Source: Oceanobacillus sojae
Lineage (GTDB): Bacteria; Bacillota; Bacilli; Bacillales; Amphibacillaceae
Assembly: GCF_900162665.1 (NCBI RefSeq)
Contig: NZ_LT727810.1
Location: forward strand, 279,067 to 343,066
DNA length: 64,000 nucleotides
Reading direction: 5' to 3'
Shown here: in pieces, positions 23,613-25,403 of the stretch
Layout: each line of letters begins with the position of its first letter
How positions within the stretch are numbered: the stretch's first letter is position 1
Program-made: the position numbers and the translations under genes
The notes under the pieces: generated by a model
Seen by the model: the letters and a program-made list of their open reading frames with translations, nothing else
What the model was told of the DNA's origin: nothing
Databases searched by the model: none

Positions 23613-25070
23613 ATGATTATCAATCACAACATTTCAGCGATTAATGCGCACCGTCAGTTGGGAGTAAACCAAAATGGTGTACAAGGATCATTGGAAAAGC
23701 TTTCTTCTGGTCTTCAAATCAACCGTGCAGGGGATGACGCTGCTGGGTTGGCAATTTCTGAAAAAATGCGTGGACAAATTCGTGGGTTGGAGCAGGCTTC
23801 TACGAATGCTCAGGACGGCATCTCGCTGATACAAACGGCGGAGGGAGCTTTGAACGAAACGCATGATATTTTACAACGTATGCGTGAGTTAGCAGTACAA
23901 TCTTCTAATGATAGTAATACAGATGCTGACCGTGAAGAAATCCAAAAAGAAGTTGACCAGTTAGCTCAGGAAATTTCACGTATCAGCAATACTACTGAAT
24001 TCAACACGCAAAACCTTGCTGGTGGAGGTTTTGAAGGTACATTCCATATTGGTGCTAATTCAGGACAAAATATTAAACTTTCTATTGATGCAATGGACGC
24101 ACATACTCTTGGAGTAGCTCGTGATGTTACTGAAACTACAGGAACTTCCGATGATTTTAATAATGTTAAAGTTGGAAATACAACAGGTTCAGCAGTAGTT
24201 GATGGTGCGTCAGTAGATGTATCTGTTGCAGCTCAAACGGGTTCAGCAGCAACAGCAGCAGCTGGTACTCATAATGGCATTACACTTACTGCCGATACAG
24301 CTGGAGAAGCAGGTAATATTAACGTTGTCTTTGCAACTGGTGCAGCTGACGATGCAGAACTTGATGGTGATACTTTAACAATTACTCTGGATTCAACTGG
24401 TGCTTTAGATGAAGGTCAAATTCAAGATGCACTAGATGCTGGAGGCGTAACTGGATTTACTCTTAGTGGTACTGGAACAGTTGCTAATGGAGAAAATTTC
24501 TCACTAGCTGGTGGAGCTGACGAAATTGCTGCGGGTGATGGATATGTTGTAACATTAACTAGCGGTACTACTACTGAAACAGTTGATGTATCAGCTGATG
24601 CTACAAATGTAATTGGCACAGGAGCATTTGAAGGTTTATCATTTAATGTTGATAATTTATCTACGTCAACATCAGGAACAATTAATATTAGTTCTACACC
24701 ATACACAGCATCTGCTGCACAATTTAATGCTGATGGTACTATAGCTAATGACGCAGTTGCAAGAGGTGGAGTTGATGTTTCAACACAAGAAACAGCTGAT
24801 GCAGCAATTACAACAATCCAAACTGCTATTAATACAGTTTCTGCACAACGTTCAAACCTTGGTGCAGTACAAAACCGTTTAGAGCACACTATCAACAACT
24901 TAGGTGCATCTGCTGAGAACATGACAGCAGCAGAATCTCGTATCAGGGACGTGGATATGGCGAAAGAGATGATGAACTTCACGAAGAATAACATCCTTTC
25001 ACAAGCGGCACAATCTATGTTAGCTCAATCCCAACAAATGCCTCAAGGAGTGTTACAACTTCTTCAGTAA
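23613..25070 (+). CDS. hag: Flagellin (major), reading through the intron-borne C-terminus
   Basis: This 485-residue flagellin is the filament subunit exported by the flagellar type III system. The N-terminal D0/D1 helices (MIINHNISAINAHRQLG to about residue 165) and C-terminal D1/D0 (from about 395) are conserved. The central 230 residues are a variable Ala/Gly/Thr-rich surface domain. There is no signal peptide, as expected. The last 14 codons of this frame (QSQQMPQGVLQLLQ and stop) lie inside a probable group I intron starting at 25026. Splicing would replace them with the exon at 25404-25448, giving QANQVPQGVLQLLQ and the same total length. Strong sigma-D promoter and SD. Confidence 0.95.
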   Translation: MIINHNISAINAHRQLGVNQNGVQGSLEKLSSGLQINRAGDDAAGLAISEKMRGQIRGLEQASTNAQDGISLIQTAEGALNETHDILQRMRELAVQSSNDSNTDADREEIQKEVDQLAQEISRISNTTEFNTQNLAGGGFEGTFHIGANSGQNIKLSIDAMDAHTLGVARDVTETTGTSDDFNNVKVGNTTGSAVVDGASVDVSVAAQTGSAATAAAGTHNGITLTADTAGEAGNINVVFATGAADDAELDGDTLTITLDSTGALDEGQIQDALDAGGVTGFTLSGTGTVANGENFSLAGGADEIAAGDGYVVTLTSGTTTETVDVSADATNVIGTGAFEGLSFNVDNLSTSTSGTINISSTPYTASAAQFNADGTIANDAVARGGVDVSTQETADAAITTIQTAINTVSAQRSNLGAVQNRLEHTINNLGASAENMTAAESRIRDVDMAKEMMNFTKNNILSQAAQSMLAQSQQMPQGVLQLLQ

Positions 25071-25403
25071 TTTGATGGGAAGGGCGTCTAATCTGGTAAC
25101 GGATTAGAGGATAACTGGGTGAATTGCTGGAACTTCCTAAAGTGTTTTGTACCACAACGGAGCTGGAAACGGCAGACGGAATGGTTTGAAAAACAAAACA
25201 ATGAAACAATGGATAATCAGCAGCCAAGCTCCTGGGAGGAAACTCTGGAGAAGGTTCAACGACTAGAATGTACTGCCTAAAGCAAATGCAATGGCAATGA
25301 GATTCGTAGGGTGGAATAAATTCCATTCGAAGTGCCCAGCCCCTTTTGATGACAAAGGGTGAAGATATAGTCTATTCTATGATCGAAAGACATAGCGGCA
25401 AAG
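25026..25403 (+). ncRNA. Probable group I self-splicing intron in the flagellin gene
   Basis: This 378-base element sits between codons 471 and 472. The 5' exon ends in U (GCT, 25023-25025) and the intron ends in G (25403), as the group I rule requires. P1 pairs GCUC (25023-25026) with GGGC (25082-25085), placing U25025 opposite G25083. It extends as 25030-25039 with 25070-25079. P2 is TCTAATC (25087-25093) with GATTAGA (25102-25108). Core motifs: AATCAGCAGCCAAGC (near 25214), GGTTCAACGACTAGA (25253-25267) and AAGATATAGTC (25362-25372), giving P7 GACTA/TAGTC. P9 is CTATG/CATAG (25377-25395). There is no endonuclease gene inside. Confidence 0.85.

Follow-up and report, generated by a model that had tools for sequence, protein, structure and literature searches.

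Flagellin genes interrupted by group I introns were reportedly described in Geobacillus stearothermophilus and thermophilic Bacillus by Hayakawa and Ishizuka in 2009 and 2012. In this study, a group I intron was analyzed in a flagellin gene of Oceanobacillus sojae, within a stretch of 64,000 nucleotides (nt) of contig NZ_LT727810.1 (positions 279,067 to 343,066, forward strand), which is called the window below and in which coordinates are numbered from its first letter. The loop of the first intron helix, P1, encodes an in-frame copy of the flagellin C-terminus, and this intron-borne tail evolves as protein. In the accessible portions of two papers, flagellin introns are cited from the same thermophiles (PMC3984707, PMC4853749); the O. 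sojae intron is likewise of group I and in a flagellin gene of Bacilli. The same portions assign the Geobacillus intron to subgroup IA2 and relate, at second hand, that splicing of a thermophile flagellin intron is temperature-dependent with an effect on motility (PMC4853749), and they read in-frame stops in bacterial group I introns as a ribosome-stalling device that lets the intron fold (PMC3984707). In an open-access literature search, neither a duplicated flagellin end nor an intron-encoded degron was named in titles or the openings of abstracts, and the accessible portions of three further papers (PMC10136302, PMC3649979, and PMC8987985) held nothing bearing on an intron-borne tail; novelty of the tail is provisional.

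The flagellin gene begins with an exon of 471 codons (23613–25025, + strand, from the open reading frame (ORF) list), which ends in GCU at the 5′ splice site. Unspliced, the message contains a read-through ORF of 485 amino acids (aa; 23613–25070), and Pfam placed Flagellin_N at residues 3–135 and Flagellin_C at residues 400–484 of its product. A preliminary description, made from the letters alone, had proposed a group I intron here, and the covariance search now run bears this out: Rfam model RF00028 matched 25052–25395 over the full model (1–253) with 79.7 bits (gathering score 50; E value 1.3e-18), the sole match detected in this genome. The intron was placed after codon 471, at 25026–25403 (+ strand, 378 nt), its ends being deduced from how the exons read and from the splice-site U and G. 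Exon 1 ends in ...TTAGCT with U at 25025, and the intron begins with CAATCC and ends in ...GGCAAAG, its terminal G being G25403. Exon 1 ended in GCT in all 94 loci kept for rate counts (below), and a count of the terminal G in relatives would be circular, as a G there was demanded by the regular expression used to find the loci. The anchor for these locus scans was a conserved stretch, TGAAGATATAGTC (25360–25372, + strand), which stands before P9 in the Rfam alignment.

The first 45 bases of the intron (25026–25070, + strand) continue the frame of exon 1 and encode the tail QSQQMPQGVLQLLQ and a stop. Exon 2 (25404–25448, + strand; CAAGCC...CAATAA) has 14 codons and a stop and encodes QANQVPQGVLQLLQ. 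With 471 codons from exon 1 and 14 from exon 2, the spliced product has 485 residues, equal to the unspliced product, in agreement with the preliminary description. Because the ORF without splicing looks like an ordinary complete flagellin, such introns may easily be overlooked. Seven of the 15 codons are identical between the intron tail and exon 2, five are synonymous (CCT/CCA, GGA/GGT, GTG/GTT, CTT/TTA, and CAG/CAA), and three change the residue (S/A, Q/N, and M/V). To call these differences mostly synonymous, as had been done, is fair for the changed codons (5/8), but one pair of ends is weak evidence, and it is the comparison across relatives (below) that establishes the point.

Relatives were searched for introns at the position found in this window, between MLA and Q (MLA/Q, site B). 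A DNA search revealed related DNA, partly exon only, in 26 of the 28 genomes of the genus Oceanobacillus, and 15 loci (L002–L016) had intron sequence at site B, with those of L006, L015, and L016 appearing degenerate. L016 (at 1518) is a remnant, in which the tail QSQQIPQGVLQILQ is kept, the 3′ half of the intron is gone, and the frame is broken further upstream. RF00028 matched in 77 of 159 genomes of the family and in 175 of 397 genomes of the order; 80 regions (family) and 100 regions (order) were taken among the matches listed, plus the genus loci. On this basis, the family set contained 35 site-B introns. Tail and flanks were intact in 32 of them; of the other three, two were in broken genes (L006 and L128), and one read QFEQIAA-stop (L068 at 4104). 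The order set contained 41, after 2 of 43 regular-expression hits were dropped as non-flagellin (L309 at 765 and L323 at 538), and all 41 had the 14-codon tail, with exon 2 detected by regular expression in 39. Among the matches listed, an intact 14-codon tail was thus carried by 73 of the 76 located site-B introns, not all of them independent (one genome contributed two near copies, L351 and L352), and the tail is therefore not a matter of chance. Some introns were overlooked by the anchor expression (L146, L160, L189, and L321 at 8682), all four being tail-bearing. A tail-bearing intron at site B was also present in a Geobacillus jurassicus record (L133).

A pattern scan based on the tail, which presupposes the tail and whose genes partly overlap the Rfam-based sets, gave at least 116 stretches in named genomes. 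The 80 loci returned had 81 places, 80 of which were flagellin with tail and 77 of which showed exon 2. They came from records of Bacilli (Geobacillus, Anoxybacillus, Exiguobacterium, Sporosarcina, Planococcus, Paenibacillus, and Brevibacillus) and of Clostridia (Clostridium, Haloimpatiens, and Fusibacter); viral contigs gave 0 hits with the pattern used. These results indicate that site-B introns in Bacilli and some Clostridia normally have a built-in tail. It is present as the preliminary description had it, but is not peculiar to this gene.

This distribution is wide and patchy, as would be expected of a passenger, that is, a tail that lets a mobile intron enter flagellin genes harmlessly and persists more through spread than through any advantage for the cell. 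Ribozyme cores of different genera sometimes differ very little (e.g., L167 and L195, by 2.5%), and the accessible portions of two papers offer analogues in prophage e14 in icd (PMC6379469) and in fungal mobile ORFs (PMC3630166). However, within this intron (25026–25403) the + strand has no listed ORF reaching 80 aa, and so none of homing-endonuclease size, and distances between cores correlate with those between host exons (Mantel 0.43, with some of the 90-nt exon 1 stretches containing upstream-intron sequence). A passenger origin is considered unlikely.

Rates were counted on 32 loci located without reference to the tail, as uncorrected ratios of nonsynonymous to synonymous differences per site (pN/pS) from NG86 (Nei and Gojobori) counts, in which synonymous distances are saturated. 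The pN/pS was 0.275 for tail codons 2–14 (bootstrap over codons 0.125–0.437) and 0.121 for the last nine (codons 6–14), compared with 0.169 for exon 2 and 0.265 for the end of exon 1. At the three codon positions, divergence was 0.246, 0.109, and 0.475 in the tail and 0.557, 0.615, and 0.601 in the 39 nt after the stop. When the tail was read in the shifted frames, pN/pS rose to 1.35 and 3.53. The tail evolves as protein, as had been suspected from the single pair, and both ends are under protein-level selection; since exon 2 is also kept, the genes behave as though both ends were in use.

The tail bases are also part of an extended P1 hairpin (25023–25085, + strand), which was studied by folding, by comparison of the fold with synonymous shuffles, and by covariation through partner swapping. 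In the fold, the splice-site helix GCUC/GGGC (25023–25026/25082–25085) joins the end of exon 1 to the guide GGGC (25082–25085), with U25025 facing G25083; this is the U-G pair that the preliminary description had placed in P1, along with the U at 25025 and the G at 25403. Within the hairpin lie the P1 extension (25029–25033/25076–25080 and 25035–25039/25070–25074, overall 25029–25039/25070–25080) and an inner stem (25045–25051/25058–25064), followed by the P2 hairpin (25087–25108; fold and Rfam alignment), all on the + strand. The extended P1 does fold as earlier proposed (z-score -3.76; 1 of 200 shuffles folds equally well), its coordinates being only nearly those first given, and the 395 nt starting at 25018 had a z-score of -4.07. 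Among 94 loci, the guide was GGGCG in 85 and GGGTC in nine, the latter including those of Clostridium, Haloimpatiens, and Fusibacter; the GCUC/GGGC helix was within the minimum free energy structure (MFE) of all 85 loci having that guide.

The strand 3′ of the stop covaries with tail codons 2–6. A partner-swap test covered 49 different 5′ strands; the P1 extension had a mean duplex energy of -6.94 kcal/mol when each strand kept its own partner, as against -3.58 kcal/mol with swapped ones (standard deviation 0.29; best of 5000 permutations, -4.98). Tail codons 6–14 had a fold energy of -6.08 kcal/mol versus -3.00 kcal/mol for synonymous shuffles, the excess in exon 2 being smaller (-3.13 versus -2.18 kcal/mol). 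Covariation and excess folding are what would be seen if the loop were kept for the hairpin only and the flagellin-tail reading were a relic, but the three-base periodicity, the pN/pS of 0.12 in codons 6–14, and the out-of-frame values above 1 are not, and a hairpin has no reason to preserve frame, 14-codon length, and residues. An RNA role as the only one is very improbable. A single 45-base stretch is ribozyme helix and structural protein end at once.

For comparison of the tail with exon 2, 94 of 100 loci were used. The six dropped ahead of the rate counts were the broken genes (L006 and L128), the tailless intron (L068 at 4104), L169 and L211 (exon 2 missed or wrongly assigned), and L209, which has a stop in the upstream stretch with tail and exon 2 intact. 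The synonymous-codon distance of the tail was 0.603 to its own exon 2 and 0.607 to others, with 726 of 2000 permutations as low. At synonymous codons the tail thus resembles its own exon 2 no more than it does others, so it is not a recent copy of it, and no sign of copying was seen there. The tail and its own exon 2 shared the variable residue in QxV in 87 of 94 loci, against 71 expected, and the final residue in 88 of 94, against 51 expected; the pattern that selected 62 of these loci left both positions free. The end VLQLL is common to both tails. S was found at position 2 in 62 of 94 intron tails versus 0 of 94 in exon 2, and M at position 5 in 43 of 94 versus 2 in exon 2.

Sixty-six flagellin ends had no intron found after them, and 40 of these start with QANQQP, as exon 2 does. 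Seven had intron-type endings, namely four with introns missed by the regular expression, the L016 remnant, and two intronless genes, in Fredinandcohnia onubensis (L207 at 3943) and Heyndrickxia sporothermodurans (L145 at 3645), with open frames of 661 and 573 aa, respectively. Conversion from intronless paralogues was considered and found unlikely, as the intron tails retain residues missing in exon-2 tails.

The two intronless genes show that an intron-type tail could serve alone, as it would have to if the intron no longer spliced, the loop tail being then the only end used and exon 2 a relic. The pN/pS of exon 2 and the conservation of the splice-site U, the guide, and the ribozyme core speak against such a loss of splicing, which is scarcely credible. 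The residue preferences of the intron tails at positions 2 and 5 could instead point to two purposeful isoforms, with splicing regulated (e.g., by temperature) and the two C-termini giving flagellins different properties. Temperature-dependent splicing is reported second hand for thermophiles in the accessible portion of PMC4853749, and surface-layer isoforms produced via a group II intron in Clostridium tetani in that of PMC3919590. However, the VLQLL end is shared, the variable residues are matched between the tails and not diverging, and the deviant codons sit in the strand of the P1 extension, so that they could be imposed by RNA pairing. We regard purposeful isoforms as quite unlikely.

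It is probable, in our judgment, that the P1 loop has two jobs, as extended P1 hairpin and as substitute last exon, and so spares the cost of translating unspliced message. The anatomy, the conservation, the protein-level selection on both tails, and the P1 covariation entering this model are observations, and the two intronless genes that end in an intron-type tail also speak for it. As RNA, the loop would form the extended hairpin in which the 5′ splice site is displayed, and as message it would encode the last 14 residues of flagellin followed by a stop. A ribosome arriving before splicing would complete flagellin and halt ahead of the ribozyme core. After its departure, P1 would refold, the intron would splice, and exon 2 would then provide the tail. 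In this way the tail would lift the penalty of translating unspliced message for an abundant protein that must assemble.

Several points weigh against this model. We infer from sequence that the intron splices in this strain, that both messages are translated, and that there is a benefit. Since the tail bases also have an RNA role, part of the tail conservation is not for protein. The residue matches between the two ends count sequences, not events, and shared ancestry inflates them. One site-B intron (L068 at 4104) lacks the tail, and in genes with an upstream intron too, the tail is reached only after that one splices. Temperature-dependent splicing affecting motility, reported second hand in the accessible portion of PMC4853749, would not be expected if unspliced message always yielded working flagellin, unless the introns concerned are tailless.

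Many of these flagellin genes have a further group I intron after RDVD (site A), upstream of site B (L053, L055, L081, and many of L017–L019, L052–L211, and L277–L376). Site A is too far from the gene end for a 14-codon copy. In all 91 cases counted, a stop closes the reading frame there after 5, 6, or 8 codons, which fits the idea, put forward in the preliminary description, of an in-frame stop halting ribosomes before the core. Of 111 unique loop peptide sequences, 105 end in Ala-Ala, 64 of them in Leu-Ala-Ala, and YALAA is common. The SsrA tag of Escherichia coli ends in YALAA, and such ends are read by ClpXP. Tags of transfer-messenger RNA (tmRNA) were obtained with ARAGORN in 41 of 45 loci (10/14 + 31/31), and all 41 end in Ala-Ala, as the site A peptides do. 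The site A peptide is unlike the SsrA tag in being encoded in cis, in an intron loop, with 5–8 codons. From this likeness of sequence, it may mark truncated flagellin for degradation.

The Ala-Ala ending was also considered as a mere product of the hairpin. All four key bases at site A are paired in the MFE of 73 of the 111 sequences. The heterozygosity of the Ala codons is 0–0.07 at the first and second positions and 0.28 and 0.71 at the third, and that of the bases that would pair after the stop is 0.44–0.53. A GCRG partner is missing in 28 sequences; 26 of them nevertheless end in Ala-Ala, several with another complementary stretch. Given the third-position variation and these 26, the hairpin was judged insufficient as an explanation, the Ala-Ala being conserved as protein. 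Endings in ...AAA that agree with ...LAAA tmRNA tags occurred in 12 of 35 peptides in family loci and 0 of 76 elsewhere, a difference that is confounded by ancestry and was not used as proof.

A third flagellin intron site lies near the N-terminus, after NAQDG (e.g., L012 at 2264, L091 at 1663, and L207 at 108), with an Rfam match at the place checked in L012. The 18 distinct readings obtained there stop either immediately or after an RLEMPL-like peptide, most with a conserved [RK]LEMPL-stop, and none (0/18) ends in Ala-Ala. The anchor also gave 33 hits away from sites A and B; 16 of these were in other genes (by eye, mostly ribonucleotide reductase), and one of the 16 ends in Ala-Ala. With 0 of 18 at NAQDG and 1 of 16 in other genes, the Ala-Ala ending is particular to site A. 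The putative ribonucleotide reductase genes (by eye) with group I introns were those of L065, L118, L306, L311, L316, L336, L340, L357, L359, and L371, in which a stop occurs at or soon after QGGSR.

The sister intron at site A suggests a second answer to the same problem of ribosomes reaching an unspliced intron. We lean slightly to the view that P1-loop peptides of 3′-end flagellin introns decide the fate of the protein from unspliced message: where only a short end is missing (MLA/Q, as in this window), the protein would be completed, and where the missing end is too long for the loop (after RDVD), the truncated protein would receive an SsrA-like ...LAA degradation signal. L068 at 4104, the only tailless site-B intron with intact flanking exon ends, also ends in Ala-Ala. 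Our confidence in this rule was somewhat higher before, and was lowered because the NAQDG site breaks it. The coding content of the loop is conserved and suited to gene position, which would mean that self-splicing and translation are reconciled at the protein end, and these genes offer a testable system for a ribozyme and ribosomes sharing one highly expressed message.

Some tmRNA matches, scoring lower than in other genomes, were immediately followed at their 3′ end by a match to RF00028 some 275 nt long (G001:C18, G003:C66, G005:C5, G018:C60, G020:C1, G043:C77, G072:C1, G085:C6, G157:C3, and G158:C1); these are probably group I introns in the tmRNA gene. In the window, a second, intronless flagellin gene of 271 aa is found at 38678–39493 (+ strand), with the C-terminal end GNQQPQMILQLLQN. 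The sequence TAAA-N15-GCCGATAT at 23448–23474 (+ strand), 5′ of the intron-bearing flagellin gene, resembles a sigma-D promoter, as judged by eye.

Three known systems, as given in the accessible portions of the papers, resemble the tail-bearing intron in part. In C. tetani, as here, unspliced and spliced messages each encode a surface-structure protein, the unspliced one being reported as the majority there (PMC3919590). That intron is of group II, with several alternative ends and distinct isoforms, whereas here a group I intron brings one same-length, near-identical end. Prophage e14 likewise brings a copy of the 3′ end of a gene, icd, and displaces the original (PMC6379469); however, e14 acts on DNA, and here the copy is in an intron loop and the original end would be regained by splicing. 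The mobile ORFs of fungal mitochondria likewise carry an in-frame C-terminus on the element, with the native end displaced downstream (PMC3630166). This is different from the flagellin intron in that the fungal ORFs are homing endonuclease elements, whereas here the native end remains under selection.
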